A stretch of DNA of 64,000 bases from Lunatimonas salinarum (GTDB lineage: Bacteria > Bacteroidota > Bacteroidia > Cytophagales > Cyclobacteriaceae), in NCBI RefSeq assembly GCF_017811155.1, contig NZ_JACVCV010000003.1, positions 248,001-312,000 of the forward strand. Direction: 5' to 3'. Below the pieces are notes generated by a model, which worked only from the letters and a program-made list of their open reading frames with translations, was not told where the DNA came from and did no database searches. The position numbers were made by a program, and so were the translations under genes. Shown piece by piece: positions 28,107 through 64,000 of the stretch (its first letter is position 1; every line of letters begins with the position of its first letter).

Positions 28107-29468
28107 TCACACAGAATCCGCCAACCGGATCAGCTCCTTACGTATTCGTTGCTCCGCATCCCCATCTAAATTACTTATCCTGCACCTCCAGGTTTCGTAT
28201 CCACCCTTTTCCAATTCAAGGGCCGGAGGGATATAGCCGAAATTGCCATTTGCGAGCGTAATGGAAAAATAGGGACTTGAAATTTCTTCTTTCAATTTGA
28301 GTCCGGTTGACGCGAAAACCTCGCCGGGCAATGCGCCTATCCTTACCGAACCTATCCTAAAACACTGCAACGGCACCTTAGCCTCAACGGGATAGGCTGC
28401 TAGCAAGCACTGTTCCCTCGCATAAAGCTTTTGCCAACCGGCATAATCCGCCTGTAGGTATTCAAAGCCGCCCTCTTCCATCCGTTCCTTTGCCGATTCC
28501 AGTTCCTGGTCAGAAGGCATACGCCTTACAAGCGACACTGCATCAGTCACCACTCCCAGAACAGGATCAGACTCCCATTGGATATCATCCAGCTTCTGGA
28601 TAAGCTTGGATGCCAAATCTGACCCGATCAGGGCACTTTTCGCGAAATCACCGGCAGGGTAAAGACTTGGGTTGTGAAAATCCCAAATGTTCACATCCCC
28701 GCTGGTGCCGTTACTCATGATGCCCACAAAGTCCTCACCTGCACATAACTCTGCCTGTAGCGATCGGGCAAAATAACCAAAATAGTCGGCAGAAATGGTC
28801 CCATTCTTCCAATCGCCTACATAATGCAAGCCATAATTTGCCAAAACGCTGATCCATTTACCCGAGATACTTTTCAACGCCAAAAACGACAATTCGGGAT
28901 CCGGCTTGGCAATAGGTCGAATGATCTTGCACTCAACACCAAAGGGATTGGTCTTTATTTTGTCTGCCTTTCCTGTAACGGGATTGAGCGGCAAAAAATC
29001 TGCTTCCATCTCATACCTTCTACACCGAAGATGCTCCGGAGCCATGACCTTGCCATAACCAAACAGAGCCGGCTCAAGACGGTTAATGGCAGCGTCCACG
29101 GCTTCCACTATCCGTCCGGGTAGCCACTGCCTATAGGCCAAATCTGCCTGTACAAAATGAACTTCCTCTACAGCACCTGCTGCATGGGTGTGGGTACTAC
29201 TAATCAGTATATTCTCAGGCGCTATGCCGGTTTGGGCCTGTATCAGACTTTTTACTTGATCCAACAGTTCCTGCCCCATGACACAGATATCCACCACCAC
29301 AAATACCAAAAAAGTTTCGGCACGTCGAAGCACCAGGGCCTTCGCAAAAAGCGGGTCATGGATAGAAGTAGCATAATGAGGAACAAAGTCACCGTTGATC
29401 ACGGTTCCCAACCGTGGGGTGGTCTCCACCTGTGCTGCACCGGCATACAATCCTGTAGTACTGTTCAT
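28107..29468 (-). CDS. Ceramidase-fold hydrolase, no signal peptide
   Basis: A 453-residue protein of the neutral/alkaline ceramidase N-terminal family (PF04734-like). It begins YAGAAQVETTPRLGTVINGD and has the zinc segment LISSTHTHAAGAV, then VLANYGLHYVGD and IMSNGTSGDVNIWDF. The family includes amidases that split ceramide, but environmental members are mostly uncharacterised. Unlike its paralogue at 52243-54522 it has no signal peptide and no C-terminal DUF1080 domain, so it is probably cytoplasmic. It is the last gene of the operon running from 35338 and starts 72 bases after the M19 dipeptidase gene. Confidence 0.8.
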   Translation of the reverse strand: MNSTTGLYAGAAQVETTPRLGTVINGDFVPHYATSIHDPLFAKALVLRRAETFLVFVVVDICVMGQELLDQVKSLIQAQTGIAPENILISSTHTHAAGAVEEVHFVQADLAYRQWLPGRIVEAVDAAINRLEPALFGYGKVMAPEHLRCRRYEMEADFLPLNPVTGKADKIKTNPFGVECKIIRPIAKPDPELSFLALKSISGKWISVLANYGLHYVGDWKNGTISADYFGYFARSLQAELCAGEDFVGIMSNGTSGDVNIWDFHNPSLYPAGDFAKSALIGSDLASKLIQKLDDIQWESDPVLGVVTDAVSLVRRMPSDQELESAKERMEEGGFEYLQADYAGWQKLYAREQCLLAAYPVEAKVPLQCFRIGSVRIGALPGEVFASTGLKLKEEISSPYFSITLANGNFGYIPPALELEKGGYETWRCRISNLDGDAEQRIRKELIRLADSV

Positions 29469-29540
29469 CTGTTTATCATTTTTTATTAGCAGCTAGCTAT
29501 CCGCTTTCTGAAAGCTCCATTTTGCCGTCATCAGAACCTT

Positions 29541-30626
29541 TTAGACTGGTAAGCTTGCCCGCAGGAAACGTAGCCAATTGCCATGAAATATCCGATCTAT
29601 ATCCTCTGAACTGTATCCCCTTTTATCCAACGACTCTTCGAATTTTTGGAGATCTGCCACGCTGTTGAGATCCCAGGGAGATTGCTCGGTACCAAAGATC
29701 CCATCCAAATCACTGCCTATAGCCACATGGTGGGTATTTCCGGCCAGCTGACAGATATGGTCCCAGTGATCGATCAGTTGCTCTAGCCGTATATCCAGTT
29801 GCCAAGGGTCGGACACCGTGTCAATGAACCGTATATCCATTGCCCAGCAATCCAACATGCCCCCAATCACCGCGCCTCTTTGAACCAGCCGTCTGATTTG
29901 CGCATCCGTTAACTGCCGTTGGTTAGGAACAATTTTCCGCACGTTGTGATGACTGGCCCATACAGGACCTTTGTACAGATCCATGGCCTGATCAAATCCT
30001 TTATCCGTAAGATGGGTAACGTCAAGAATCAGGTTCAAACGACCCATCCCCTCCAACAGCTGTTCTCCCAAGGGGGTAATCGGGCCTTCCGTTTTTGTGC
30101 CGGGAGCATACCTCCCCGGCCCGAAATGCGACAAACCCAACGCGCGTACGCCATACGCATAGGCCTTATCCAGGTAAGAAACCTCTACTAAGGAGTCCGC
30201 TCCTTCCAAACTGAGAATATAGCCTATGGGCTTATCCGCATCGGGCACTGCTTCATCTTCCCAAAGGGCTACCATTTCGTCCAAATCCCGTCGGGTCAGA
30301 ATCTGTCTCATTTCCCCAGCTGATTCCATTTCCCGGTACCAAGCCAGTTGGGCTTGGGTCATGGCCCAGGCCTGCTGAGGTGAATTCCAACCCGGAAGTG
30401 CAGAATCGGGCGGTGAATACCGTGCCAGTTGCGTTGCCACGACAATTCCTACCTTGCCTTTTCGAAGCTCTGGAAGCGTCACTGTTCCTTTGCCCCTGTC
30501 CGGCTTGTCCTTCATGTGCATTTCCATCTGCCGTACCTGGCTAAGCTCAAGCCGCAGATCCCGGTTCCACTCAATGGCATTCATGGCCAAATCCAGATGC
30601 CCATCAATGATCAGCCTCCTTTGCAT
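29541..30626 (-). CDS. M19-family (renal-type) dipeptidase
   Basis: A 361-residue zinc dipeptidase of the amidohydrolase fold. The dinuclear-site ligands are recognisable: His-x-Asp in IDGHLDLAM, the bridging Glu in LSLEGADS, His in LDVTHLTDKG and His in WASHHNVR. The late DGIFGTEQSP segment is also typical. M19 enzymes hydrolyse dipeptides, including those with D-residues, and some related N-acyl amino acid bonds. There is no signal peptide, so action is cytoplasmic. It lies 5 bases after the RidA gene. In this setting it may remove an amino-acyl group from an imported conjugate, which is inference. Confidence 0.9.
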   Translation of the reverse strand: MQRRLIIDGHLDLAMNAIEWNRDLRLELSQVRQMEMHMKDKPDRGKGTVTLPELRKGKVGIVVATQLARYSPPDSALPGWNSPQQAWAMTQAQLAWYREMESAGEMRQILTRRDLDEMVALWEDEAVPDADKPIGYILSLEGADSLVEVSYLDKAYAYGVRALGLSHFGPGRYAPGTKTEGPITPLGEQLLEGMGRLNLILDVTHLTDKGFDQAMDLYKGPVWASHHNVRKIVPNQRQLTDAQIRRLVQRGAVIGGMLDCWAMDIRFIDTVSDPWQLDIRLEQLIDHWDHICQLAGNTHHVAIGSDLDGIFGTEQSPWDLNSVADLQKFEESLDKRGYSSEDIDRIFHGNWLRFLRASLPV

Positions 30627-30631
30627 GTCAA

Positions 30632-31018
30632 TCAGGCGGTAGGGATTTTAACAATACAATCTATTTCTACCTTTAGTCCTTCTGCCAATACAGACTGCAC
30701 CGTCGTTCGAGCGGGCTTTACGCCGGTAAAATAGGATGCATATACCCGATTGTACCGGTCAAACTCACGGATATCGGCCAAATGCACGGTACATTTGACG
30801 ATATCGTTCATGGTAGCCCCGGCGGCTTCCACGATCGCCTTTATGTTTTCCAGGGTTCTGACGGTTTCTTCCTCAATCGTACCCAAGACAAAACGGGAAG
30901 TCTCAAAATCAACGGCTGCCTGACCGGAAACAAACAAGAAACCGTCTATCAAAACCGCATCAGAATACGCTCCGGTGACAAAATTTTCATCTCTTTTTGG
31001 ATGTACTATCTTTTTCAT
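30632..31018 (-). CDS. RidA-family enamine/imine deaminase
   Basis: A 128-residue protein with the YjgF/YER057c/UK114 fold. It begins KKIVHPKRDENFVTGAYSDAV and has VDFETSRFVLGTIEEETVRTLENIKA, VKCTVHLADIREFDRYN and the catalytic-type Arg in GVKPARTTVQ. RidA proteins hydrolyse reactive enamine or imine intermediates released by PLP enzymes. That fits the presence of two aminotransferases in the neighbouring operon. It is the sixth gene of the operon, 24 bases after the SDR gene. Confidence 0.93.
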   Translation of the reverse strand: MKKIVHPKRDENFVTGAYSDAVLIDGFLFVSGQAAVDFETSRFVLGTIEEETVRTLENIKAIVEAAGATMNDIVKCTVHLADIREFDRYNRVYASYFTGVKPARTTVQSVLAEGLKVEIDCIVKIPTA

Positions 31019-31042
31019 ATCTACGCTAGTTAATTAACCTAT

Positions 31043-31864
31043 TTACATCGTGGTCCAACCACCGTCAACCACCAAGTTATGTCCGGTCATAAAAGAAGAG
31101 GCTGATGAAAGAAGAAAACAAACGGCTCCAGCCACTTCATGGGCCCTTCCGACACGCTTTAACAGCGTTTTATCCGCCAGCCGCTGCACAAATTCCGGAT
31201 GGGAATGCCTTACTTCGGGACCAGGAAAAGGCCCTGGAGAAACGCAATTACACCGTACGCCCCGCTTGCCGTATTGCATAGCGAAATATTTGGTCAGTTG
31301 TATAATTCCCGCCTTGCCTACCCCATACTCAATTGGATTGGGATTCATTGGTGCTTCGTACACAGCGGGGTCTGGAGAAACCATCCCATACATACTACCA
31401 AAGGTCACAAAACTACCTCCACCTGCCTGCGCCATCAGCTCGCAAACCTTTCTGCCGAATACAAAACCAGCGGTCAGGCCTATCTCATTTACCCTATTAA
31501 AGTCGGCTGCTGATAAATCGGCAAACGCCTTCCCTGACGCCGCATAGGTCAGGTTGACCACCCCGTTAGGTACTCCAAACTCAGACGAAAGCAAGGAGGT
31601 AAATGCCTCCACCTGTTCCTCTTCGGCAATATCCAAGGACACAGGGATCACTTGTGGAAACAACTCTTCCTGACCCACAAAGTCTTTGCTCTTGCTTCCC
31701 AAATCGGCACAGATAACCCTTGCCCCGGCGGAGGCCAACATTTTCACTAAGGACTGCCCCAGGTACCCGGCACCTCCTAGCACCCAGAAAAGCTTACCCC
31801 GCAGCCCAAAAGCACTTTCAAAATCTTCCTCGCTATGGCTGGCCTTATCATGCATTGAGTCCAC
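31043..31864 (-). CDS. SDR-family oxidoreductase (canonical active site)
   Basis: A 273-residue NAD(P)-dependent short-chain dehydrogenase. It has a dinucleotide motif (VLGGAGYLGQSL) and the Ser-Tyr-Lys active site: Ser in VTFGSMYG, then Tyr and Lys in IEYGVGKAGI. The C-terminus DGGWT is typical. It overlaps the upstream SDR gene by 17 bases, and the two are related in sequence. It probably oxidises a hydroxyl group of a sugar acid or amino sugar intermediate. The substrate cannot be read. Confidence 0.92.
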   Translation of the reverse strand: MDSMHDKASHSEEDFESAFGLRGKLFWVLGGAGYLGQSLVKMLASAGARVICADLGSKSKDFVGQEELFPQVIPVSLDIAEEEQVEAFTSLLSSEFGVPNGVVNLTYAASGKAFADLSAADFNRVNEIGLTAGFVFGRKVCELMAQAGGGSFVTFGSMYGMVSPDPAVYEAPMNPNPIEYGVGKAGIIQLTKYFAMQYGKRGVRCNCVSPGPFPGPEVRHSHPEFVQRLADKTLLKRVGRAHEVAGAVCFLLSSASSFMTGHNLVVDGGWTTM

Positions 31865-32624
31865 CGTCCATCAAGATGTTTTCTCCATTGATATAGGCTC
31901 CTGCGTCAGAGGCCAGCAACACTGCCAACCCTTTTATGTCATCGGTATTGGCCATGCGTCGCATAGGCACTTTACGGCAATAATTATCCAAAAAAGCCTG
32001 GGGCTGATGGTTAAAAAGTCCTCCGGGACTGATACAATTGAACCTGATGTTCTTTCCGGCATGCATCTTCGCCATAAAACGGGTTATGTTGATCAGTCCG
32101 GCGTTGTGAAAAAAATAATCAGGCGGAAGATCTCCCATGGTGGTGCCTTCGTAGTTCGATAAATCCGGCCCTTTCATGCCCATCATGGAAGCGATATTGA
32201 TCACCGATCCTCCACCAGAGGCGATGATCAAATCTGTCAGCTTTCTGAGCAGGTCCATCATACCAGTCGCATTGACCTGCATAGATTCTGAAAACTGACT
32301 AATCGGTGCCCTATAGCCCTTCATTGGTCGTGAAACTGCATTATTGACAAATACATGCAATCGCCCGAACTCAGCCAGCAGCTCTTCCCGAAAAGCCGCT
32401 ACAGACTCCGGAATACCTTGGTCCAGCTCCATGGGGAAGACCCGCAGACCCTGTGCCTGATACGCTTCGGCGGTCCTCTGCGCCGAAGCGAGTTCCCGGG
32501 AGGTGGTAATCACCGTTCCGCCCGCTTCGGCCAAACCTTCTACCAAACACTTGCCGTATTGCCCCGATCCACCGGTCACAACGATGACCTTTTCTTTTAA
32601 ACTCAATAATTCGTTTACGTGCAT
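31848..32624 (-). CDS. SDR-family protein lacking the catalytic lysine
   Basis: A 258-residue short-chain dehydrogenase fold. The coenzyme motif is intact (VVTGGSGQYGKCL, residues 15-27), as are NNA, Ser146 (NIASMMG) and Tyr170. The position four residues after the Tyr, normally Lys, is Asn174 (DYFFHNAG). The Lys is needed to bind the nicotinamide ribose and lower the Tyr pKa, so activity is likely weak or absent. It overlaps the canonical SDR gene downstream, and an active/inactive pair working together is plausible. The C-terminus (ENILMDGGLNA) is normal. Confidence 0.88.
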   Translation of the reverse strand: MHVNELLSLKEKVIVVTGGSGQYGKCLVEGLAEAGGTVITTSRELASAQRTAEAYQAQGLRVFPMELDQGIPESVAAFREELLAEFGRLHVFVNNAVSRPMKGYRAPISQFSESMQVNATGMMDLLRKLTDLIIASGGGSVINIASMMGMKGPDLSNYEGTTMGDLPPDYFFHNAGLINITRFMAKMHAGKNIRFNCISPGGLFNHQPQAFLDNYCRKVPMRRMANTDDIKGLAVLLASDAGAYINGENILMDGGLNA

Positions 32625-32626
32625 AC

Positions 32627-33550
32627 TTATTTTTTCAATGGTACCACAATCCCTCCATGATCCAAACTCGTTTGAGCACCTATTACGGTTTGGATGATGC
32701 GGTAGGTTTTACCAAAACCCAAGCGGCTAGCTCCTTCTTCCACGGACCGGACGAATTCCAACATATTATCCCGAAACATGCTGTAGGAGTTGCGGATGTC
32801 GGCCAGACGCCATCCATCGCTTCCGAAAAAGGAAAGCTGAAAGGTACCGCAAATATCCGAAAACAGGTGAATGCTCGCCTTAATGCCTCCTTCAAATTCC
32901 ATTACAACCGTGTCCCGGTCCCGCTCGCCCACGTGACGAACCCAAAGTGGAACGGGATCATTCAAGGTACTGAAAAGCGCTTCCACCAAGTGCACCCCAT
33001 ATTTTTTCCAGTCCTTTTTCCCGACAGCGGTCACCAAGTGGATCTTGCCCAAGGCCCCCAACTCTGTCTTAACCGTCCGACACTCCTGTGCGTAGCGCAT
33101 TGACGAACAGGACATGAGGAACTTTCCCGCCGCCACTTGGCCCGCAAAGTATTCCAAATCCTCCTGGCTAAACGCCAATGGCTTATCCACAAATACCGGA
33201 ACATCAGCATCTAAAAAGGGCTTGGCCATGGCCACGTGATATTCCGGATCATCCCTAGCCAAAATCACGGCATCGACTTCGCCCACCATGTCTTCCAGTT
33301 TCTCGGCCAAATAGGGTATTTTAGAAGATTTGGCAATACTTTCACTGATTTCCAAGTCCTGAGTCCAAACGTGCGTCACCCTGGCACCGGGAATTCCCAA
33401 CGTGTCACGGTTTGCCTGAAGGTAGGCAGATACCGCCGGATAGCCGATCTCTGCGATCACCTTTCCATCAAAAGATCCATTGATAATCGCAGACCAAGAA
33501 TAAGGATGTGCATTTCCGGGACTCATGCCTAATATTCCAATTCGTATCAT
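32627..33550 (-). CDS. Gfo/Idh/MocA-family oxidoreductase
   Basis: A 307-residue NAD(P)-dependent oxidoreductase with an N-terminal Rossmann fold. The dinucleotide loop is unusual (IGILGMSPGNAHPYSW). The family's EKP signature appears as FVDKPLAFS near residue 120. The C-terminal half follows the usual beta-sheet dimer domain (GKIHLVTAVGKKDWKKYGVHLVEA). Members oxidise or reduce sugars, inositols and related cyclic polyols. It lies 2 bases from the downstream SDR gene and 16 bases from the upstream aldo/keto reductase gene, so it is translated from the same operon. Confidence 0.88.
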   Translation of the reverse strand: MIRIGILGMSPGNAHPYSWSAIINGSFDGKVIAEIGYPAVSAYLQANRDTLGIPGARVTHVWTQDLEISESIAKSSKIPYLAEKLEDMVGEVDAVILARDDPEYHVAMAKPFLDADVPVFVDKPLAFSQEDLEYFAGQVAAGKFLMSCSSMRYAQECRTVKTELGALGKIHLVTAVGKKDWKKYGVHLVEALFSTLNDPVPLWVRHVGERDRDTVVMEFEGGIKASIHLFSDICGTFQLSFFGSDGWRLADIRNSYSMFRDNMLEFVRSVEEGASRLGFGKTYRIIQTVIGAQTSLDHGGIVVPLKK

Positions 33551-33566: not shown

Positions 33567-34523
33567 TTAGGTTAGCCACCCCATTCGATCCCAATGAGGT
33601 AAGTTGATAAATTCAGGATCCGGAAATGCAAGCCGCTTTACGGCATCGAAGATTTCCTCATCCAGTTGGGATTTATGCGCCGCCCCCACCGCCTGAAGGA
33701 GGTATTTTTCCTGATCAATACCCACCAATACCGAGGATACCGCCTCAAAAGAAAGGGCAAAACGAATAGCTAAGGTGGGTAGATCGATATCCATTGTACC
33801 TGCCAGGTCGGCTAACTTTTGTATATGCCGTTCCACACGCTCAAGGGGTAAAGGAAGGCCCTTTCCCCGATCGCTCAACAGGCCCTTCAGCAACACCGAA
33901 CGGATTACCAGACCCACATTGCTTTTGGCAGCAGACTCAAAGACGGCAGCCTGACGTTGATCCAATATATTAAAAGGCAATTGGACTACCTGCCATACAC
34001 CACTTTTAATGGCTAAGGTTGACTCGGAGGCCGAGTAGGTTGATGCTCCTATGCTACGAACCTTTCCGGCATCCCTAAGTGCCAGAAAAGCCTCGATTAT
34101 TTCTTCGCACTGTAGGATTTCTTCATCCGCCTGATGCAACATGAATAGATCCAGGTAATCGGTACGCAACGCACACAGACTTTCCTCCGCTGATTGATGT
34201 ATGATGCGGGTTAGTTCACCTGTCGCTGGCAACTGTCCTCTCTGATCTCGGAAGTGCCGGCATTTAGAGCAGATAACCACCTGTTCCCTCTTGGACGCAA
34301 ATGCGATTCCCATCAGGCGTTCCGAATCTCCATACATGCGTGCTGTATCAAAAAAATTAATACCCTCTTCCAAGGATCGGTTTAATAGATTTACGGCCTC
34401 TCTTTCCTGCAACATATCCGCCTCGGAACGTATGCCTATTCCATAAGGCATGCCTATTTCCACGCCGCCAAACGCTATTTCAGACACACGCAGACCGGTG
34501 CTTCCCAAATCAACGTACCTCAT
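33567..34523 (-). CDS. Aldo/keto reductase
   Basis: A 318-residue NAD(P)H-dependent TIM-barrel oxidoreductase. The catalytic tetrad is present: Asp and Tyr in FFDTARMYGDSE, Lys in VVICSKCRH and His in LFMLHQAD. The start MRYVDLGSTGLRVSEIAFGG and the later ASTYSAS are typical of sugar-active subfamilies such as L-galactose or L-fucose dehydrogenase relatives. It overlaps the aldolase gene by four bases, indicating translational coupling. The substrate is unknown. Confidence 0.92.
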   Translation of the reverse strand: MRYVDLGSTGLRVSEIAFGGVEIGMPYGIGIRSEADMLQEREAVNLLNRSLEEGINFFDTARMYGDSERLMGIAFASKREQVVICSKCRHFRDQRGQLPATGELTRIIHQSAEESLCALRTDYLDLFMLHQADEEILQCEEIIEAFLALRDAGKVRSIGASTYSASESTLAIKSGVWQVVQLPFNILDQRQAAVFESAAKSNVGLVIRSVLLKGLLSDRGKGLPLPLERVERHIQKLADLAGTMDIDLPTLAIRFALSFEAVSSVLVGIDQEKYLLQAVGAAHKSQLDEEIFDAVKRLAFPDPEFINLPHWDRMGWLT

Positions 34524-35338
34524 TGCTTATCTCTGGAATGGTAATAGGAATTTCCTTCGATCTTGGAAGGGGCAGAGGGTACCTCACTCAGGAGTTTTTG
34601 GCAATATTGGGTGAGCCCCACCACATCTGCACCGATACTTACGAACTGATAACCCATGGCATACAAGTCGTTCAGCTGACTTACACCTCCTGTCGTTCCG
34701 GCAAACTTTCCATACTTGGCAGCAACTTCGGCTACCCGTTTTCTGGCTTCCTGAATCTTAGGGTGAGTCCATTCACCCGGTGCACCTATGCCCTGACTGA
34801 AATCTCCGGGACCAAAAAAAAGCATGTCAAAGCCATCCAAGGCTGCAATTTCTTCAATCGCCTCCAACGCCTCGGGGTCTTCAATCTGAAAAATCACAAA
34901 ACGTTCGGTATTTGCATCTCGGAGGTACTGCTTGAAATCGAGGGCTGTATAGGCCCCATCTGCATTCCCTCCGTCGATGGCCCGTAAGCCAACGGGGTGA
35001 AAACGTACCTGACGCACTACGGCGGCACCATCCCCGATACTCATTACGTGGGGCACCATGATACCTGCCGCATCCAACTCCAACGGTTTTACATAGTCGC
35101 TATAGCTTCCCCTCGGAACTCTTACCACTACGTCTTTGCCATGGGCCTTTGCCGCCCATATCTGGGAAGCCAATATGGACCAATCCTGTCCAATATGCTC
35201 CTGGTCTACCCAAATGCAGTCAAATCCAGCAAATGCAGCAATCTCCACCGATCGGGCATCCGCCAGGTTAATTTTAAAGCAGGTGACCTTTTCACCGGCT
35301 CGTAATTTTTTCAGCACAAGGCTCTTTCTCATTTCCAT
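34520..35338 (-). CDS. HpcH/HpaI-family class II aldolase
   Basis: A 272-residue metal-dependent aldolase of the HpcH/HpaI (citrate lyase beta-like) family. Active-site elements are visible: WVDQEHIGQDW, RVPRGSYSD, the metal-binding Glu in FQIEDPEALEAIEEI and the Asp in MLFFGPGDFSQGIG. Family members such as RhmA and GarL cleave 2-keto-3-deoxy sugar acids to pyruvate and an aldehyde. It is the first gene of an eight-gene operon of dehydrogenases and hydrolases. That position supports a role as the final C-C cleavage step of a sugar-acid pathway, which is inference. Confidence 0.9.
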   Translation of the reverse strand: MEMRKSLVLKKLRAGEKVTCFKINLADARSVEIAAFAGFDCIWVDQEHIGQDWSILASQIWAAKAHGKDVVVRVPRGSYSDYVKPLELDAAGIMVPHVMSIGDGAAVVRQVRFHPVGLRAIDGGNADGAYTALDFKQYLRDANTERFVIFQIEDPEALEAIEEIAALDGFDMLFFGPGDFSQGIGAPGEWTHPKIQEARKRVAEVAAKYGKFAGTTGGVSQLNDLYAMGYQFVSIGADVVGLTQYCQKLLSEVPSAPSKIEGNSYYHSRDKQ

Positions 35339-35388: not shown

Positions 35389-35502
35389 CGATATGGCTAT
35401 TACTTTCTGATAGAATCCTGATACTTTTTTACGGCGGCTTAATAAGGGGCTTTTTGGAATAAAAAAGTTCCAAAACAATCAAAAAGTAATCGTATGAGTG
35501 CT

Positions 35503-36371: not shown

Positions 36372-36393
36372 CTATTTCGCGCAGCATATATCA
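36348..36393. repeat. 21-bp direct repeat at the 3' end of the BNR gene
   Basis: TATTTCGCGCAGCATATATC plus A occurs at 36348-36368 and again at 36373-36393, four bases apart. The second copy supplies the last codons and the stop of the BNR gene. Confidence 0.9.
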
Positions 36394-47837: not shown

Positions 47838-47901
47838 TCCCTGTTCTATAAAAATGGGCTGTCGGCACAATTACGTGCTAACGGATAAATTTTCACAATA
47901 C

Positions 47902-55804: not shown

Positions 55805-56160
55805 GTATAGGGCCGGCGATTTGCCTGGTATGATTTTTCTTGTAAAAGTAATAGGTCACCACATCCCCCCTTGGGTGTTTCATAGATCGAGGCTTCGTTA
55901 AACACCACCTCATCGTTCACTGCCACCGGGGCAGAATACTGCCCAGTGAGCCCCTTATCATGCGAAATCAATAAATGATTGAATCGGTGTGAGGAAAAAC
56001 ACATCACCCAAAGGTGATTTTTATGAACGATCATCCCCGGATAGCTGGTATCTCCTCCAATCGGCGATACCAGGGTAGACACAAAATTACCTTTGAAACC
56101 TGAGGTAAATATGGCTGTTTTCCGGCCGCCCTGCTGATAATACCTGGATCCTATCACCAA
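55805..56160 (-). pseudogene. Chimeric remnant of two BNR hydrolase genes
   Basis: From the upstream end it reads VIGSRYYQQGGRKTAIFTS, then GGDTSYPGMIVHKNHLWVM. This copies the C-terminal part of the protein at 58910-59920. At about 55979-55990 it switches to NHLLISHDKGLTGQYSAPVA, then VVFNEASIYETPKG, which copies the middle of the protein at 57711-58904. One extra C in a run at about 55866 shifts the frame. At about 55855-55863 the sequence then jumps, through a short CACCA match, to the 3' end of the same gene. It cannot be functional. It starts where the intact gene at 56154 ends. Confidence 0.88.
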
Positions 56161-57605
56161 TTAAACTTAAACGAAAACAAATCCGCGTCCTTCAGGTAAA
56201 CACGCATTCGGACGGGCTTTCCTGAGAGCTCCGATACATCATTTGAGTTGTTCCAATAAACAGTCCTTGAAATCTCATTACCTATCACCGGCCGGCATTC
56301 TTCTTTGGAGAACCCAGGTATTTTGTTTCCATTTTCATCGAGGATTTCGACCAGTATCTCTCCAGCGGCTGAGGTAGAATAGTTAAGTTGCAACACATTC
56401 CCATCAAAGATAAACGGCTTGGTGAGCATTTCCCCTCCGTTATACCCCGCGGAGACAGAAGCAAAGCCATCCAGCCGCATGGAATACCGGCGCAGGTGGG
56501 CGGTGGGCTGGGCATAATCTTGATTTACATACACAGACATCTCTTCGGGACCGGTCTGAACCACGTTCAACGCAGGGTAGTTGGATCGGGAAACCCAATT
56601 TTGCAATCCAATCCCAGGGCGGATGAATGATTCCATAAACTGCCTCTCATACGCATTTCCTCCCCTGGAACTCATCAATATTACATCCGAACAGTCTTTA
56701 TAATACTTGGGATCCACCCCCAGCAACTTGGCTTCTTCATCGGAAATTACCTGACGATTAGGCATAAATCGGGCACCTATGGCCAGGTAAATGTGCGGCG
56801 CACGAAAATAAGGGCTGGTCTGCTGGGTATAAAGATGCTCATAGGGTGTGTTTCCAAAACTCATCGCTTCCGGGTCGCTCCAGTGGATGAAATCGGGAGA
56901 GGTAGTTCTACTGACCGAACGGTAGCCACTGTAACCTCCGCCGGTCCAGGAACGGAAATAGCAAACATATTGCCTTTCAGATTCAGACCAGAAGGCGACA
57001 TTCTGAGAGTCAAATACCCCTTTGGTAAATACCGGACCTTCCTGTAGGCGTTGCCAGTGAATACCGTCCTCGGATACAAAGGCCACCAACCCGCTAGAGG
57101 AGGTACCTCCCAGGGCCTTATACCGTTGCTGTTTTGGCACATCTGGGTTGGTATCAATAAACGGACTGAAGTTGTGGGTAATGGGGGCCGCATTGGCCAA
57201 AATCACGTTGTTTGCCTTGCTTCCGGCTATTTCATGAATTCCGAGATCCGGCTTTTCCCAATGGATCCCATCTTTTGATTCTGCGTAACAGGTGACTTCG
57301 GCCTCGTTACCATCCTTTCCGGCCATTGGCACTCCCCTATAATAAGCCCGGTACATCGGTCCATCCTTCAATATGGTTACATAAGCCGAAAAAGCTCCCT
57401 CCCAAGGCCTATCGAAGGCTAAAACCTCGCCTCGGTCCACTGGCTCGTGCAATATAACCTGCGCACCATCCAACGACTCAATCAGCGTGCGGTCCACAAA
57501 TAGTTCCCTATCCGATCCGATGGTAAGGGGACCTTGGGCAAAAACAACAGTCAGTCCAGTCAGGACACTCAGCAGGCAGCAAATAAACGAAATCCGGTTA
57601 ATCAT
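56154..57605 (-). CDS. Exported beta-propeller glycosidase-like protein
   Basis: A 483-residue protein with a signal peptide (ICCLLSVLTGLTVVFAQ). It begins LTIGSDRELFVDRTLIESLDG and has propeller segments (ESKDGIHWEKPDLGIHE, FVSEDGIHWQRLQEG, SPDFIHWSDPEAMSFGNTP) like the GH32/43-superfamily proteins common in Planctomycetota and Bacteroidota. The C-terminal 90 residues form a beta-sandwich. The last two residues (NW) and the stop come from the junction with a duplicated neighbouring gene; the relic copy ends FRFH. It is probably periplasmic or surface-located. The substrate is unknown. Confidence 0.78.
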   Translation of the reverse strand: MINRISFICCLLSVLTGLTVVFAQGPLTIGSDRELFVDRTLIESLDGAQVILHEPVDRGEVLAFDRPWEGAFSAYVTILKDGPMYRAYYRGVPMAGKDGNEAEVTCYAESKDGIHWEKPDLGIHEIAGSKANNVILANAAPITHNFSPFIDTNPDVPKQQRYKALGGTSSSGLVAFVSEDGIHWQRLQEGPVFTKGVFDSQNVAFWSESERQYVCYFRSWTGGGYSGYRSVSRTTSPDFIHWSDPEAMSFGNTPYEHLYTQQTSPYFRAPHIYLAIGARFMPNRQVISDEEAKLLGVDPKYYKDCSDVILMSSRGGNAYERQFMESFIRPGIGLQNWVSRSNYPALNVVQTGPEEMSVYVNQDYAQPTAHLRRYSMRLDGFASVSAGYNGGEMLTKPFIFDGNVLQLNYSTSAAGEILVEILDENGNKIPGFSKEECRPVIGNEISRTVYWNNSNDVSELSGKPVRMRVYLKDADLFSFKFNW

Positions 57606-57710: not shown

Positions 57711-58904
57711 TCAGAATCGGATGATACTGCCGGCAATGTGTCTGGTCTGATTTTCCTTGTTAAAATAATACGTCACCAAGGCATGCTTTTCGTCCAATGC
57801 CACTGCCCAAGGATAGCCAATATCCGTACTGCCTCCGTCCTCGCGCAGGATGATTTCCGGAGCGGTTTCGAAATCCGTACATTCCGCATTCAAAATCCTG
57901 GCTCTGATCCCGTAGGGCTGATGCCTGTAACCGTAGACAAGCAGCACCCGATTGTCGGGCAGGCGCAATGCCTGCAAGGGATGGCCCTTAAATCCCATCG
58001 ATTTCCATGGTCCAAAGCTCTTGCCTCCGTCCGTAGATCGCACGATAACCGCTTGGTCATCGTATTTCCCTGTTCGGATAAAGGCCACCACATCCCCCTT
58101 GGGTGTTTCGTAGACGGATGCTTCGTTAAACACCACCTCAGGATCCACTGCCACCGGAGCGGAATACTGCCAGGTAAGACCTTTGTCATTCGAAATCAAT
58201 AAATGATTGGAAGTTTTACTGGGCGACAGCTGATCATGGGAAGCGACAACCCAAAAGACCCTGCCATCTTTTCCTTCATACAGGGCCCCTCGGTTATAAG
58301 CGGGAACCGGATCCCCTGTAGGAGTGAAATTGATTTCCGGCTGAATGTGAGGCGGATAAAAAGGTCCCTTCCAAGACTTGCCTCCATCGGAAGACCGCAC
58401 CACATAGCCGCCCAGAAACACGTAGCCACCACCCGTCACGAAGTTGGGTGTACGTAGATTTTTGCGGTCTGCTTCACTGATCTGTGTCCATCCGTAGCTA
58501 GTACAAAGCAGGGTACCGTCGGACAACTGTAGCAGACAGGGGTCTTGGGACCCTCCAAAATCATGGGCATACAGCAGCTCGGGCTCTCCGGACCAGTTTA
58601 TCCCATCCCTGGAAGTCATTTGTACCAGGTAGCTGTTGGGATCGGTGTGGCTATAGCCTTTGGAACCGAAATTTCGTCGGTCCGGAGCACGCCTAAAGGA
58701 CAGTAAAAACTCTCCGTCGGGCTTCCGGACAATTGAAGGAAAAGCGGCATAATACCGTTCGTCGTGATATATAACGATGTCCTTTACCTTTTCAGCTATC
58801 TGCTGTGTGCTGTCCGGAGGGAGCAACACTACCTCTCCCTCGGCAAACGAAGGCAGAATAAAGGCAAACATCAATACAAGACTGTACATACTGAATAATC
58901 TCAT
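57711..58904 (-). CDS. Exported BNR-repeat (sialidase-like) hydrolase
   Basis: A 397-residue protein with a signal peptide (MYSLVLMFAFILPSFAEG). Asp-box repeats are clear: SSDGGKSWKGPF, SNDKGLTWQYSAP and STDGGKSFGPWKS, with a less regular one in TSRDGINWSGEP. The early segment AAFPSIVRKPDGEFLLSFRR is where sialidases carry the first Arg of their triad. Sialidase activity is therefore possible but not proven. It lies 5 bases after the next upstream propeller gene and was part of the duplicated gene set whose remains lie at 55805-56160. Confidence 0.85.
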   Translation of the reverse strand: MRLFSMYSLVLMFAFILPSFAEGEVVLLPPDSTQQIAEKVKDIVIYHDERYYAAFPSIVRKPDGEFLLSFRRAPDRRNFGSKGYSHTDPNSYLVQMTSRDGINWSGEPELLYAHDFGGSQDPCLLQLSDGTLLCTSYGWTQISEADRKNLRTPNFVTGGGYVFLGGYVVRSSDGGKSWKGPFYPPHIQPEINFTPTGDPVPAYNRGALYEGKDGRVFWVVASHDQLSPSKTSNHLLISNDKGLTWQYSAPVAVDPEVVFNEASVYETPKGDVVAFIRTGKYDDQAVIVRSTDGGKSFGPWKSMGFKGHPLQALRLPDNRVLLVYGYRHQPYGIRARILNAECTDFETAPEIILREDGGSTDIGYPWAVALDEKHALVTYYFNKENQTRHIAGSIIRF

Positions 58905-58909: not shown

Positions 58910-59920
58910 TTAGGGTTTTAATTGGTTAATGGGAATCTGAGAAAGGTAGATTTTGGATTTTTCTTCGTGGGAGGAATAATACATCACCCAAAGACGATTC
59001 TTGTGAAAGATCATTCCGGGATAACTGGTATCACCTCCACTAGGAAACACCATAGTAGACAGAAAATTGCCATCCAAATCCGAGGTGAAAATAGCCGTTT
59101 TTGGACCTCCTGGCTGATGATACCTGGATCCTATCACCAATTGATCTTTGTTTAAAAACAAGAAGTTGGGACCACCCAATCGAATGTTCAATCGACTGAA
59201 TTTCCAGTCCTTATACGGTGCCTCCGCGGAAGCAATCATACCCATTTGGTCATCCGCTTCCCGGCGTACCAGTACGTACATTTTTCCCGTTTTATCAAAG
59301 CGTATGGTCGCCTCATTGGGATTTCCTCCGGTATCAATTTGTGACACCCATTCAAAGTGCTTGCCATCCACCGTTTTCAGCAAGTGGGTTTCCCATCCTC
59401 CTTCCTTGATTTGATAGATAACGCCGTAGCCCACTTTTTTATGCCAGGTCAGGCTCCATATCCAATCAAGGGAAGGAGAAAGGCCCATAGTTGTTCGGGT
59501 CAACTCGGAAAAATTCAATCCCGATTGATCGGAGAATGACACCATGGGAAACAATTCCTTGTATCCTTTATCGTATATCCCCACTGCGGTGAGCACCATG
59601 ATCTGGCCCTTTGGTGTAACGGAAAGCCGCGCCTCCCTCACATCGTAACCATCCATTTCCAGAAGGCCGATATCCTCCCACTGGTCCCCATCTTTTGAAC
59701 GAAGCAATCTAACCTGCCCGCTTTTATCAGGCATGTGATTGTTTCCTTCCCGGATGGCGGCATAGAAATAACTTTTAAACCGGATAAGATCCGGGAAGGC
59801 ATTGTGAGGCGCCTTATCCCATACTACCTTGGAAGTAGGCACATAATCCTGAGCCTTTAATTCCAAACCACCTACTATCCAAAGCAGGACAAGCAGTGCA
59901 AAACCTTTATTTAAATACAT
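58910..59920 (-). CDS. Exported BNR/propeller hydrolase-like protein
   Basis: A 336-residue protein with a signal peptide (FALLVLLWIVGGLELKAQ). It opens with WDKAPHNAFPDLIRFKSYFYAAIREG, then RLLRSKDGDQWEDIGLLEM. This arrangement, with an Arg near the start of each of the first blades, is typical of the sialidase-like superfamily. The C-terminal blade reads GGDTSYPGMIFHKNRLWVMYYSS. It is probably periplasmic. It follows the DapA-family gene by 19 bases, and its C-terminal third is copied in the remnant at 55805-56160. Confidence 0.8.
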   Translation of the reverse strand: MYLNKGFALLVLLWIVGGLELKAQDYVPTSKVVWDKAPHNAFPDLIRFKSYFYAAIREGNNHMPDKSGQVRLLRSKDGDQWEDIGLLEMDGYDVREARLSVTPKGQIMVLTAVGIYDKGYKELFPMVSFSDQSGLNFSELTRTTMGLSPSLDWIWSLTWHKKVGYGVIYQIKEGGWETHLLKTVDGKHFEWVSQIDTGGNPNEATIRFDKTGKMYVLVRREADDQMGMIASAEAPYKDWKFSRLNIRLGGPNFLFLNKDQLVIGSRYHQPGGPKTAIFTSDLDGNFLSTMVFPSGGDTSYPGMIFHKNRLWVMYYSSHEEKSKIYLSQIPINQLKP

Positions 59921-59939: not shown

Positions 59940-60869
59940 CTAAGAAATAAATTCCGGAATCCATTTTCGCCCAATTGTCCGAAGATGCGACACCTCGTCT
60001 TCGGGAACACCCCTATAGGGCCACCGGACACCGGTTCCAATCGGTATCCAACCACCCAGTGCGGCAAGTAATTTATCCACTGCTGTATTGGAATACCCCT
60101 GATTTGTGATAAAAGGCAATATCGCCTCCTCGAAAAAACCCAGCACCCGCTTTTCAATGGCCAGGGCCTTCGGCAGATCGCTCTGCATCAAGTGAAACCA
60201 GTCTACCGCAGCACCTGGATTCAGACAGGCAACATTCGAGTAGGAACCGTGCGCTCCACGGGAAATCCCTGTGGCCAATCGATGGCCAGGGACAAACACC
60301 GAAATCCGCTCCAATACCGGCTGCATTTCTTCGTACCAGCCCGCATCGCCCGCAGCGACTTTACAACCCACCAAGGGGATTCCTGTGGAAACAAGCTCTT
60401 TCCACTGTTTGGGACTCAACACCTGCTTGGCGTGAGGAGGATTATAAAGCACCAAGCCTATTGGTGCTGCTTCAGCCGCCATCTTTTCCAAAAAGGCACA
60501 GATCTCACTAAAACTTAACTGCATCCAATCAGGCAGGATAACTTGTATGGCAGATGGCCTTAACGCAACTGCCCTTCGGAGCCTTTCCAGCGAAATTATG
60601 GGGCTCATATGGCTACACCCTAACTGAAATGGCAAAGAATACCGCTCGGAGATTTCAGCAGTTAGCGCACTGACACGATCAAACTCACTTTCCGTCTGAT
60701 TATAAAACTCACCTGCCGTTCCATTGGTATAGACACCGTCCACCCCAGCCTTCGCCAGGTAGGTAAGCTGATCCGCAAACCGGGCATAATCTATCTCTCC
60801 TTTTTCCGTGATGGGCAACAACAGGGTTGCCCACACTCCCCGGATTTGATCCGCTAACAGGGGCCTCAT
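59940..60869 (-). CDS. DapA/NanA-family lyase
   Basis: A 309-residue cytoplasmic TIM-barrel enzyme of the dihydrodipicolinate synthase/N-acetylneuraminate lyase family. It has the phosphate/carboxylate loop as GTAGEF (one of the usual two hydroxyl residues kept), the catalytic Tyr in VLYNPPHA and the Schiff-base Lys in LVGCKVAAGDAGW. Members cleave or join 2-keto acids with pyruvate, including sialic acid and 2-keto-3-deoxy sugar acids. With several sialidase-like proteins around it a nonulosonate or keto-deoxy sugar acid lyase is plausible. It overlaps the upstream propeller gene by 4 bases. Confidence 0.9.
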   Translation of the reverse strand: MRPLLADQIRGVWATLLLPITEKGEIDYARFADQLTYLAKAGVDGVYTNGTAGEFYNQTESEFDRVSALTAEISERYSLPFQLGCSHMSPIISLERLRRAVALRPSAIQVILPDWMQLSFSEICAFLEKMAAEAAPIGLVLYNPPHAKQVLSPKQWKELVSTGIPLVGCKVAAGDAGWYEEMQPVLERISVFVPGHRLATGISRGAHGSYSNVACLNPGAAVDWFHLMQSDLPKALAIEKRVLGFFEEAILPFITNQGYSNTAVDKLLAALGGWIPIGTGVRWPYRGVPEDEVSHLRTIGRKWIPEFIS

Positions 60870-62011
60870 TGAACTTGCCCCAAAGGAAGTTTCCAGATTA
60901 CCGTGCCCATATGGTACCGATCATGCGTGGCATTCCCATCGGAGTAATAGGCAGTAAGAATGCTGCCATCCGGCAGCTGCGTGCTAGAGGGGTAGCCACA
61001 GTCCCGACTTTTTAGATCATCTATTACCAAATATTCGTCGGACCAGGTTTTCCCTTGATCTGAACTAAACTTGACTGCCACTCCAAATTCTCCGGGTATT
61101 CGGTTGCCATAAGTAAGTAACAAGTCTCCATTGGACAATGAAGTGATGTGGCCGGGATGTTGCAGCTCCTCGGTTATCGGACTAACGTAGCCCCAACTTT
61201 TCCCATCGTCTTCGCTGATAAACAAATCCATCGCTGCACCCGCTTTCCACCTCCTAGCGGCTGCAATCCAGCTTTTCTCTCCTGTTTGGAAGAAGGCAGT
61301 TTCGTTGTGACCACCTGCAAATGCGGTAGGCCCAGAGGCATCACTGAGATGAGATACCCAGCTCCATGACCTTCCTTGATCATCGCTTCTAAACATAGAT
61401 ACCTTGTTTACAACCTTATCTAATGACTGTGCATAAGCAAGAACCCTTAAGCTTCCATCCCTTGCTTCCAATACGTCTCCGAAAGGGATAAATTCGGTCA
61501 TTCCCGCTTCTGCTCCCGGAAAGCCATTTTTATATGTTTTCCACCTCACTCCCCCGTCTGCTGAAACAGAAGACCATGCACGCAGCACCCGAACCAGATC
61601 CATTCGCGAAGTAGGTGTTTCACCGGGCTTTAGTTCCCATCCTGAAGCTACCACCACCAATTCTCCTCTACCATTTTTACCTGCGGCGACATTCATTCGA
61701 TTTGTTCCCGTATCATTCTTTGTCGCAATGCCTGATTTTGTCCAAAAATGCCCTCCATCTGCAGTTGACCATACTTCCACACTTCCTTCCATCCGAGCGT
61801 GGCTGGGTTGATTAAAGATGCTTGCATGGATGGATCCATCCTCCAATTTCGTCAAATTCGGCCACGCACATACATTATCGATAGACACAAATCGCTTAAC
61901 GATTTCCACCTTTTGCTTTTCTTTGGGAGATGGATCGGTGGGGCTAATTGCTGGCTTCATCAAAACAGCACCCATAACCATTCCTGTGGCCATTATCCAA
62001 GTCTGAATCAT
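60866..62011 (-). CDS. Exported BNR-repeat (sialidase-like) hydrolase
   Basis: A 381-residue protein with an N-terminal hydrophobic segment (QTWIMATGMVMGAVLMKPA) likely to be a signal peptide. Five Asp-box-like repeats are visible: STADGGHFWTK, SADGGVRWKTY, SDDQGRSWSWV, SEDDGKSWGYV and SSDQGKTWSDE, a good match for a propeller of the sialidase type. It is the first enzyme gene after susD (117-base gap) and overlaps the lyase gene by 4 bases. The pairing with a DapA/NanA-type lyase makes release of a keto-acid sugar attractive but unproven. Confidence 0.87.
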   Translation of the reverse strand: MIQTWIMATGMVMGAVLMKPAISPTDPSPKEKQKVEIVKRFVSIDNVCAWPNLTKLEDGSIHASIFNQPSHARMEGSVEVWSTADGGHFWTKSGIATKNDTGTNRMNVAAGKNGRGELVVVASGWELKPGETPTSRMDLVRVLRAWSSVSADGGVRWKTYKNGFPGAEAGMTEFIPFGDVLEARDGSLRVLAYAQSLDKVVNKVSMFRSDDQGRSWSWVSHLSDASGPTAFAGGHNETAFFQTGEKSWIAAARRWKAGAAMDLFISEDDGKSWGYVSPITEELQHPGHITSLSNGDLLLTYGNRIPGEFGVAVKFSSDQGKTWSDEYLVIDDLKSRDCGYPSSTQLPDGSILTAYYSDGNATHDRYHMGTVIWKLPLGQVQ

Positions 62012-62128
62012 ATTCCATTAATTTTATACTTCAATAAAACTTATTAAACGCTGCTTAGAACAAATGTATGCTCGATCAAATACTGCGAAACGCCGGCTTA
62101 CATTCCGGCAGTAACTACAAAGGATTGA

Positions 62129-63598
62129 TCAATATCCGGGGTTTTGCTGCACAAGGGGTTCTTGGCTGAGCACGGTATTAGCGATTGGAAACAAAAGCAA
62201 GTGGTTTTGTCCAACCCTGTTCTGCAAAGCAGGTACCAATTCAAACGCCTTGTCAAACCTCAGCAGATCCCACCATCGCTTCCCCTCCAAAACCAACTCC
62301 AATAGTCGTTCCTTTAGAATGGCGGCATCATTCGCTTCTTGACTGCCGGACACAAATCGATACGCATCGAAATTTTCGCCGTAAGCCCGTTCTCTCACCA
62401 GGTTGATCTCTTGTGATGGATCCTGCCCAAGGGCATTCTTGGCCTCCGCACGCATCAGCAATACATCTGCATACCTGTAGAGAATGGGGTCACTCAAGAA
62501 TACCCGATTGCCACCAATGATGGTGCCCTGAAACTTCTGCTGAATATTGGTCAAATACGTTCGAGATCCGTCTTGCTCAATGGTTTCGATCTCAAAAAAA
62601 GTGGACGCCCTACGGGTATCATCTTCGGTAAACTGACTCCTTACCCGCTCGTCCATCACCATCAGTCCCTGTCCACCTCCGATGGGAAATATTTTATCCC
62701 TGGTTTCCTGATCAATATTGCTTGGTGCCGCTGCACCGATGATCCACATAAACCACAGATAGTTACCTGGCTCTAGATCCTGGTGCCGAATTGACATTAA
62801 AATTTCCTTATTACCCTTATTTTCAAAGTCAAAAACATCCGAAAAATCCTCCAATAAGGCGACATCTGCTTGATCTACCTCATTCAGCGCTGCCAATGCG
62901 GTATTTAAATCGGCCGTACCGCCTCCACTGCGCTTTGCCGTCCACAGATACACATCCCCTTTCAATGCATTGGTGGCTGCTTTGGACCATACCGCCCTGC
63001 CGTTGGAAAAGGAATTGTCCGGAAACAGCTGCAAGGCTTGCTCCAAATCCTGTTTTATGAGCGCAAACACCTCCGCTTGGGACTCCCGCTCCCGGAGGGT
63101 AACCTCGGCCCCAAAACCCTCCGTGGGTTCTGTCCGAATGATCAAATCTCCCCAGGTTTTGGTCATGGTGAAATACAGAAAAGCTCTCATCGCATAGGCC
63201 TGGGCCAGCACGCTGTTCTTTCGGGCTTCCGAGGCAAAAGTAACATTTGGTACGTTTTTAAGAATAAGATTTGCCGTGTTGATAGCACGGTAAAATCCAC
63301 TCCAGTCAGGATGACCGGGCGTGTCGGCATTCATTTCATTGCGGTGCAGAATAAATACCCCCTCGCCAAACAAACCGGGAGTCATCACTTCGCTGCGGTG
63401 TTCGCCAAGTTGATGTAAGCCTTGGGATAAATTCCTTAGCTCCACGTACATGCCCATCAGGGCTCCATTGGCGTCGTTTTCCGTACGCCAAAAATTATTG
63501 GTCGTGATCACACTGGTTGGATCCACATTCAGCGTTTCGGTACAGGACCCTGCAAGCAAAAGCAGCGTTGAAACGGCTAGTATTTTTAGATTCTTCAT
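62129..63598 (-). CDS. SusD/RagB-type substrate-binding lipoprotein
   Basis: A 489-residue lipoprotein with a clear lipobox (LAVSTLLLLAGSC). SusD features include NNFWRTENDANGALMGMYVEL near the N-terminus, AQAYAMRAFLYFTMTKTWGDLII, the tetratricopeptide-like WSKAATNALKGDVYLWTAK, and a C-terminal LLELVLEGKRWWDLLRF. It should bind the glycan of this locus at the cell surface with the SusC transporter encoded just upstream (19-base gap). It shares little detailed sequence with the susD at 9091. Confidence 0.95.
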   Translation of the reverse strand: MKNLKILAVSTLLLLAGSCTETLNVDPTSVITTNNFWRTENDANGALMGMYVELRNLSQGLHQLGEHRSEVMTPGLFGEGVFILHRNEMNADTPGHPDWSGFYRAINTANLILKNVPNVTFASEARKNSVLAQAYAMRAFLYFTMTKTWGDLIIRTEPTEGFGAEVTLRERESQAEVFALIKQDLEQALQLFPDNSFSNGRAVWSKAATNALKGDVYLWTAKRSGGGTADLNTALAALNEVDQADVALLEDFSDVFDFENKGNKEILMSIRHQDLEPGNYLWFMWIIGAAAPSNIDQETRDKIFPIGGGQGLMVMDERVRSQFTEDDTRRASTFFEIETIEQDGSRTYLTNIQQKFQGTIIGGNRVFLSDPILYRYADVLLMRAEAKNALGQDPSQEINLVRERAYGENFDAYRFVSGSQEANDAAILKERLLELVLEGKRWWDLLRFDKAFELVPALQNRVGQNHLLLFPIANTVLSQEPLVQQNPGY

Positions 63599-63617
63599 GG
63601 CTTCGTTTCTTTTGAAA

Positions 63618-64000
63618 TTAGAATGTCACATTAACTCCAAAGTTGTAATTTTTAGGAACTGCATACCGTCCGTCATCCCTTCCGCCTTCCTCGGGGTTCA
63701 ACCCTTTGTAGGCAGTGAAATAATGAAGATTGTTCCCGGTGAAATTAAACCGGACTCCATTTAAACGGAGCTTCTTTACTATCTCCATGGGAACAGCGTA
63801 ACTCAACGTCAGTTCTCTGACGCATAGAAAATCTCCCGATTCAAAAAACACCGAATTACCGGTAGTTGCCGTGCCATTGAAATTATTTCGTTGTACCCGT
63901 TCTCCACCCCAGTAGAAGCGTGAATACTCTGCCACGTCTCCCTGTTCTTTCCACGAATTCTCATATTTATCAACCGTCATGTTATTGTCACCAAATAAAT
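63618..64000 (-). CDS. SusC/RagA-type TonB-dependent transporter (C-terminal end only)
   Basis: The frame runs through the window edge, so only the last 127 or so residues are visible. It includes YSRFYWGGERVQRNNF, VRELTLSYAVPMEIVKKLRLNG and the closing strand NYNFGVNVTF. Such a C-terminus, with VRELTLSYxxP followed by GNNLHYFTAYKGLNPEE, is diagnostic of SusC barrels. It is directly followed by susD. The gene heads the second catabolic locus; its promoter lies outside the window. Confidence 0.95.
   Translation of the reverse strand, partial: LFGDNNMTVDKYENSWKEQGDVAEYSRFYWGGERVQRNNFNGTATTGNSVFFESGDFLCVRELTLSYAVPMEIVKKLRLNGVRFNFTGNNLHYFTAYKGLNPEEGGRDDGRYAVPKNYNFGVNVTF

Follow-up and report, generated by a model that had tools for sequence, protein, structure and literature searches.

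A conserved gene array of Lunatimonas salinarum with a shared upstream direct repeat, a candidate regulon for catabolism of an amino-sugar acid

Gene content and layout of the array

The DNA analysed here (the window) is a 64,000-nucleotide stretch of the Lunatimonas salinarum genome (contig NZ_JACVCV010000003.1, positions 248,001 to 312,000), lying within a 412-kb contig of a 5.46-Mb genome, and the subject of this report is the gene array at its positions 28107 to 64000. The array consists of locus 1 (49190-64000) and locus 2 (28107-47870), with a gene for an AraC-family regulator (48254-49132, plus strand) between them. Gene families were assigned by Pfam and NCBIfam profile searches. An earlier reading of the letters alone (the sequence-only reading) had described two facing loci that might form one catabolic system, and nearly all of the gene families that it named for both loci were confirmed by these searches. 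The loci do not face each other, however: both lie on the minus strand in a tandem arrangement, and a divergent arrangement was noted in a relative, G815. The plus-strand frames in the array region are the AraC gene and a small frame at 55325-55804. The features of the array are as follows.

63618..64000, minus: SusC, 3' end only; the frame continues past the window to 66866, with a candidate operator at 66906-66940 (extended coordinates)
62129..63598, minus: SusD (Pfam SusD_RagB, above cut-off)
60866..62011, minus: BNR1, BNR_2 propeller (Pfam); export look judged by eye
59940..60869, minus: DHDPS/acylneuraminate-lyase-family protein (DHDPS; Pfam)
58910..59920, minus: BNR2, propeller-like, no Pfam match; export look judged by eye
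57711..58904, minus: BNR3, BNR_2 propeller (Pfam); near solved structure 5hx0 (Dfer_1899, no assigned function)
56154..57605, minus: GHx, no Pfam match; weak profile match to GH32-type hydrolase alone
52243..54522, minus: fusion of a ceramidase_alk N-terminal domain with a 3-keto-disaccharide hydrolase (DUF1080), apparently accessory
49190..52396, minus: PVC-type heme-binding CxxCH protein (DUF7133-HEAT-cytochrome c), apparently accessory
48254..49132, plus: AraC-family regulator (HTH_18), predicted switch
48015..48049, plus: AraC-side copy of the candidate operator, lacking a TAnnTTTG box at 22-23 bp
47932..47966, plus: candidate operator, HCDHa promoter; TAnnTTTG box at 22 bp
46857..47870, minus: HCDHa, 3HCDH-family dehydrogenase, motifs intact
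45541..46860, minus: AT1, class-III pyridoxal phosphate (PLP) enzyme of the GSAM/GntE kind
44552..45544, minus: HCDHb, diverged sister of HCDHa; Asn replaces the catalytic-type His
44561..44595, plus: weaker candidate operator, upstream of PhyH and inside the 3' end of HCDHb
43767..44507, minus: PhyH-family Fe/2-oxoglutarate dioxygenase
41254..43770, minus: SSF sodium symporter with N-terminal soluble domain
40128..41243, minus: BNR4, BNR_2 propeller; signal peptide not obvious
37782..40106, minus: AH-AT, amidohydrolase (Amidohydro_2) fused to class-III aminotransferase
36372..37667, minus: BNR5, no Pfam match; Tat-type signal by eye
35748-36131: PDDEXK_3 gene, present only in three Lunatimonas-type regions among 15 compared
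35399..35433, plus: candidate operator, HpcH promoter; TAnnTTTG box at 22 bp
34520..35338, minus: HpcH/HpaI-type pyruvate aldolase (HpcH)
33567..34523, minus: AKR, aldo/keto reductase
32627..33550, minus: Gfo/Idh/MocA oxidoreductase (Gfo)
31848..32624, minus: SDR2
31043..31864, minus: SDR1
30632..31018, minus: RidA-type enamine/imine hydrolase
29541..30626, minus: M19 dipeptidase-family hydrolase (M19)
28107..29468, minus: CerA, ceramidase-like hydrolase; signal peptide not obvious

Conservation of the array in relatives

The 28 array genes were compared across 15 regions, the host's own included, and three further regions were read to give 18. Counts below refer to 17 regions, as G035, in whose 80 kb HCDHa, M19 and CerA are all missing, was excluded, along with G102, which consists of two short contigs. 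These 17 regions span the family-level groups f1, f5, f11, f56 and f83, with the Cyclobacterium genomes G479 and G480 carrying no group handle; f11 we take to be Spirosomataceae because BNR3 is close to structure 5hx0, which is from Dyadobacter fermentans.

A core of HCDHa, AT1, HCDHb, M19 and CerA was present in all 17 regions. It forms a single run, or nearly so, in ten of them, and in the seven Cyclobacteriaceae-type regions M19 and CerA stand at the far end of the array and the core is dispersed. The SusC/SusD pair was found with at least 48% identity in 14/17 regions, in several gene orders, and the AraC gene in 16, the exception being G815, where none was found in the 40 kb read. HpcH was present in 13 regions, DHDPS in eight and full-length AH-AT in six. 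The array persists amid different neighbours in Pleomorphovibrio marinus (G032), and in four f11 genomes (G270, G444, G406 and G355) genes of both loci are interleaved in a single run with gene-by-gene differences. In G815 the two loci are divergent, the SusC and HCDHa operons leaving a common interval. The array is one conserved unit by these comparisons, and the recurrence of the set in other genera and families speaks against a chance grouping.

Across the 390 genomes of the order, BNR3 had a match (E<=1e-60) in eight, host included, and seven of these carry the array. A match to HCDHa was found in 49/390 genomes; all ten with at least 53% identity (host included) have the core, and the other 39 are weaker relatives that were set aside as paralogues. 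Six paralogous HCDHa genes were inspected, one each in G173, G336, G185, G121 and the host and the second copy of G353: M19 adjoins two of them, and AT1, HCDHb and CerA adjoin none. The AH-AT fusion was also tried as a marker and proved useless alone, matching 191/195 genomes owing to its common aminotransferase domain.

A shared operator element with fixed promoter spacing

A 35-bp direct repeat with TACTwTT half-sites in a 21-bp register lies upstream of SusC, HpcH, HCDHa/RidA and AraC. It was first found in the AraC-HCDHa interval of seven Cyclobacteriaceae-type members, and a first matrix was built from the copies in that interval only (13 found, 10 kept for the scan). This matrix gave high-scoring sites in other arrays upstream of SusC, AraC, HpcH, RidA/HCDHa and BNR3, where three shuffles per region reached a maximum score of 12.1. 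A second matrix was built from 26 hand-picked hits of that scan, spread over eight other genomes of other families; a few of these were low-scoring (down to 3.8) and were taken for their position upstream of a gene. Applied to the host, its top five among 163,932 positions were the two HCDHa/AraC sites, which are not independent of matrix training, and the HpcH, PhyH and SusC sites, which are. The SusC site ranked 4th or 5th with this matrix in all six members with that SusC. For G068, whose nearest SusC is non-orthologous, the best upstream position ranked only 10th; no locus-1 orthologue was seen in this region, which starts at a contig end just past AraC.

Searched as a pattern with at most one mismatch, the element occurs four times in the whole host genome, all in this array (reversed control, one). 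With at most three mismatches the window holds five matches, four of them inside the array; five matches did not arise in any of 100 shuffles. At zero mismatches, in a set of 195 relatives, the pattern was found in all 8 genomes known to carry the array in full or in part and in 11 of the remaining 187 (not all of which were checked for the array); since the control matched 16/195, the 11 are at chance level.

The element keeps a fixed distance to a promoter box. In 35 of 47 sites drawn from 14 genomes, the element is followed at a distance of exactly 22 bp (29 sites) or 23 bp (6 sites) by a TAnnTTTG box, the -7 element in promoters of Bacteroidota. When one mismatch was allowed, the box stood at offset 22 in 32/47 sites, and the maximum at any offset over 1000 shuffles was six. 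The operator matrix excludes the box, which had been noticed by eye in host promoters before the 47 sites were chosen. Omitted from the 47 were the sites of G001, G002 and G480 (near-identical) and of G035, two G182 C15 sites and the G182 C17 site, the AraC and SusC sites of G355, one G383 site and the second G592 site. Among the 12 sites lacking an exact box, eight are AraC-side copies and two belong to PhyH; the other two, in G474, are off by one base. This spacing is the arrangement expected of an activator beside RNA polymerase.

An unrelated SusC gene of G182 has the element 159 bp upstream of it, and further sites in that genome lie near a DUF4838 gene followed by a sulfatase. The interval from which the SusC and HCDHa operons of G815 diverge contains the two top-scoring sites of its 40 kb. 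Although G035 lacks most of the core, its SusC, ceramidase-like and AraC genes are preceded by operator-like sites with scores of 18-42.

The conserved core, the recurring SusC/SusD pair, the interleaving of genes and the shared upstream element indicate that the two loci are very probably one co-regulated system, which the sequence-only reading had put forward as a possibility. With a shared element, one common regulator is likely. The AraC protein encoded between the loci has a C-terminal helix-turn-helix pair, with HTH_18 above cut-off, and it is likely that this adjacent regulator binds the element and controls the system. In the AraC gene of G182 (L142 17644-18505), the orthologue is broken into two overlapping frames in the assembly.

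Core enzymes and transport

HCDHa has the catalytic-type His motif in 15/15 orthologues, and GxGxxG was likewise intact in an alignment of 10. Its sister HCDHb has Asn at the catalytic-type His position in all 15 orthologues, and GxGxxG is intact in 0/10 aligned sequences. Because the His is replaced and the GxGxxG is degenerate, HCDHb may be a pseudo-enzyme partner of HCDHa, the pair flanking AT1, whose PLP lysine motif is kept in 15/15 orthologues. CerA scored 24.7 bits against a full-length neutral-ceramidase equivalog cut-off of 1200. The segments THTH, HYVGD, NGTSG and GGYE, which supply metal ligands in neutral ceramidase, are nevertheless kept in 15/15 orthologues and align with human neutral ceramidase (4wgk), the middle segment weakly. 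HpcH is nearest to HpaI-, GarL- and YfaU-type aldolases. A D-threonine-aldolase/D-serine-dehydratase-type gene follows CerA in 3/18 regions only (G444, G592 and G815).

Solved relatives of the aminotransferase half of AH-AT include an aminopentol aminotransferase. Stand-alone class-III aminotransferases with 46-48% identity to this half occur beside an AKR gene in G100 (L055-L056) and G056 (L057-L058), within gene clusters that by eye look like ones for making pseudaminate, which hints that this synthesis may include an additional amination. The SSF symporter (41254-43770) has an N-terminal soluble, lipoprotein-like domain of ~330 residues, which five relatives (G474, G270, G444, G406 and G383) encode as a protein of its own.

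Propellers and accessory proteins

As possible glycan-degrading enzymes the array offers only the BNR_2, ceramidase-like and DUF1080 proteins and those with no family match. Sialidase-like propellers had been claimed for both loci, and this stands for BNR1, BNR3 and BNR4, which match Pfam BNR_2, as a statement of fold. The proteins at 58910-59920, 56154-57605 and 36372-37667 match no Pfam family, and no Asp-box was found by regular expression in the first two. BNR3 aligns weakly with sialidases (best E 0.0098). The nearest solved structures to DHDPS are acylneuraminate lyases, the best being 4n4p (E 3.5e-15). The heme protein and the ceramidase-DUF1080 protein (49190-54522) look accessory to the system, since of all the regions compared just G001, G002, G480 and G035 carry full orthologues of them.

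Comparison with known systems

The array resembles a polysaccharide utilization locus of the SusCD type in holding a SusC/SusD pair, exported proteins, an inner-membrane transporter and a regulator in one cluster, and its SusC and SusD homologues adjoin. It differs in that the window array showed no glycosidase belonging to an assigned family, in that its exported proteins could be given no activity, and in that its constant part is the cytosolic set of PLP, 3HCDH, M19 and ceramidase-like proteins, which also occurs with other SusCD pairs (G182, G353). A Nan sialic acid cluster likewise has BNR_2 propellers, SusCD, an SSF symporter and an acylneuraminate-lyase-like protein, but the array adds the HCDH pair, class-III enzymes, HpcH, M19 and CerA, and has the lyase-like gene in fewer than half of the regions. 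NanE had two matches in the host genome, both below cut-off; the Bacteroides-type epimerase, NanA and NanK were not searched for. The earlier statement that the set does not fit the NanA/NanE/NanK pathway therefore holds as far as NanE goes, and is tempered by the nearness of DHDPS to acylneuraminate lyases.

Non-phosphorylative (oxidative) sugar-acid routes include those of the L-fucose/L-rhamnose lactonase-aldolase type. The array shares with them AKR/SDR dehydrogenases, an amidohydrolase-type lactonase and an HpcH/YfaU-type aldolase, but no enolase-type dehydratase was seen, the amidohydrolase is present in 6/17 regions only, and the PLP enzymes, RidA and deacylase-like enzymes of the array suggest a nitrogen-bearing sugar. 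In a D-glucosaminate-type route a 2-amino-aldonate is converted to a 2-keto-3-deoxy acid. Such a route would link a 2-amino-aldonic acid, ammonia release by a PLP enzyme and a pyruvate aldolase, as might be the case here; the core PLP enzyme of the array is of class III, however, and the D-threonine-aldolase/D-serine-dehydratase-type gene is confined to the three regions named above. A literature search covering titles and abstract openings, with most subscription journals outside its scope, gave, among the matches listed, neither a description of this system nor a paper naming glucosaminate dehydratase.

Proposed pathway and alternative explanations

Taken together, the deacylase-like enzymes, the PLP enzymes and RidA, the oxidoreductases and the pyruvate aldolase suggest a non-phosphorylative route for an N-acylated amino-sugar acid, which is likely the substrate. 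An acidic sugar carrying nitrogen or an acyl-amino group, as first proposed, remains a plausible and the best reading of the enzyme families. The AraC protein would bind the 35-bp direct repeat 22-23 bp upstream of the TAnnTTTG box and thereby activate three transcription units at once, those of SusC, HCDHa and HpcH. A glycan would be trimmed by the exported propellers, and its fragments would be taken up through SusCD and the SSF symporter or, in some relatives, MFS proteins. Inside the cell, CerA and M19 may strip acyl or aminoacyl groups, the AKR, Gfo and SDR enzymes, with the amidohydrolase as a lactonase, may oxidise the sugar to an acid, and HCDHa with the degenerate HCDHb and AT1 could remove nitrogen while RidA clears the imine. 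HpcH would then split a 2-keto-3-deoxy acid into pyruvate and an aldehyde. This chemical route is tentative, its chances a little below even, and we give an even chance to the explanation taken whole, namely one inducible catabolic regulon with an AraC switch and this chemistry for an N-acylated amino-sugar acid.

Several results weigh against this explanation. In G182 and G353 the core occurs, but orthologues of SusC, SusD, the propellers, HpcH, AKR, Gfo and PhyH do not, and G455 holds BNR3 without the array, so that independence of the two loci, which had been named as grounds for refutation, was found in part. Orthologues of HpcH and AKR are absent from G182 and G353 and from the 40 kb read in G592 and G815; therefore the aldolase step is not universal. 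The window array shows no dehydratase assignable to a known aldonate family. G815 has sites without an AraC gene in the 40 kb read, G035 has many operator-like sites without HCDHa, M19 or CerA, and no box stands at 22-23 bp from the PhyH site or the AraC-side site. The closeness of DHDPS to acylneuraminate lyases fits degradation of a nonulosonic acid.

That two mere neighbour systems answer different signals is very unlikely: the bare cores of G182 and G353 and the lone BNR3 of G455 would fit, but not the interleaved gene order in relatives or the shared element with its fixed promoter spacing. The element upstream of the other SusC in G182 weakens the case that G182 and G353 make for separate systems. 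Because of that site, and because G353 has an unrelated SusC/SusD pair close to its core, we read the array as a constant back end, the core, joined to an exchangeable SusCD front end. The repeat might instead be bound by a different regulator, the AraC gene being adjacent by chance, and the sites of G815 agree with this. We consider it improbable, as AraC is present in all other regions counted, the repeat lies upstream of AraC in many of them, the element is confined to this array in the host, and a direct repeat in a 21-bp register is usual for AraC-family sites.

Two alternatives concern the substrate. A nonulosonic acid of the pseudaminic or legionaminic kind could be degraded, with the propellers releasing it, DHDPS acting as the lyase, and AH-AT, AKR, AT1 and HpcH processing the remaining diamino sugar. 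The solved relatives of DHDPS, the export look of the BNR_2 propellers (by eye) and the AH-AT relatives next to AKR in G100 and G056 point that way. Neither DHDPS nor AH-AT belongs to the core, however, BNR3 is only weakly similar to sialidases, and NanE has no match above cut-off, so that we regard this as unlikely, if worth keeping in mind. Alternatively, N-acylated aminolipid or sphingoid-like head groups could be degraded, the ceramidase-like proteins cutting the amide, the class-III enzyme deaminating, and PhyH, HCDH and SDR enzymes oxidising the chain. Ceramidase-like proteins do stand at both ends of the array, 3HCDH and PhyH families are present, and an aminopentol aminotransferase is among the AH-AT relatives; yet SusCD, the propellers, Gfo, AKR and HpcH are sugar-type proteins and CerA falls far short of the neutral-ceramidase cut-off, which makes this quite improbable.

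The preferred explanation, an N-acylated amino-sugar acid as substrate, can be put in a fuller form that we hold with some reserve, as slightly less than an even prospect. The array would encode an undescribed non-phosphorylative route with a constant core of HCDHa, pseudo-HCDHb, a GSAM-type PLP enzyme, M19 and a cytosolic ceramidase-fold deacylase, sparsely distributed over several Bacteroidota families, and an AraC operator-promoter cassette would couple this core to an acquired SusCD/glycosidase front end. If so, the operator would be a handle that links any SusCD system bearing it to this pathway, and a reporter made of AraC and one of the promoters could be used to find the substrate. Functions would also be indicated for several orphan families at a stroke: the 5hx0 propeller, cytosolic ceramidase-like proteins, M19 'dipeptidases' in sugar operons and the 3HCDH pseudo-enzyme.

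Related neighbourhoods and minor features

Besides BNR3 (83%), the G035 locus (C67, 28-108 kb, L232-L235) carries two pairs of SusC and SusD genes, two AraC genes, heme-type genes and several ceramidase-like ones, and so reads as a front end from which most of the core is missing. The two HCDHa paralogues that adjoin M19 (L146 in G173 and L149 in G336) have 48-49% identity to HCDHa, their M19 genes have 54-62%, and one lies beside an MFS protein that by eye resembles a hexuronate carrier. There may be a sister pathway around these genes. Between the PDDEXK_3 gene and the HpcH promoter stands a perfect tandem duplication of 120 bp (35503-35740), and related-looking repeats occupy the equivalent position in G001 and G002, two genomes of the host's own genus.

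Plasmid searches with CerA, HCDHb and AT1 gave only relatives below 60% identity, and the array was absent from the six neighbourhoods read. In Nitratireductor a CerA relative lies beside an amidohydrolase, an SIS protein and a mannonate dehydratase, and a Streptomyces neighbourhood has AKR, PhyH and a 39% AT1 relative together; both are suggestive only. A scan of genome contigs with the amidohydrolase half only gave 10 loci, none of them planctomycete, and Planctomycetota were not searched as a group. Two metagenome-assembled genomes of Bryobacterales (Acidobacteriota; L073, L074) have clustered amidohydrolase (36-37%), DHDPS-like, AKR and HpcH genes, together with proteins read by eye as PhyH and MFS. 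The AKR-lactonase-aldolase part therefore recurs outside the Bacteroidota.

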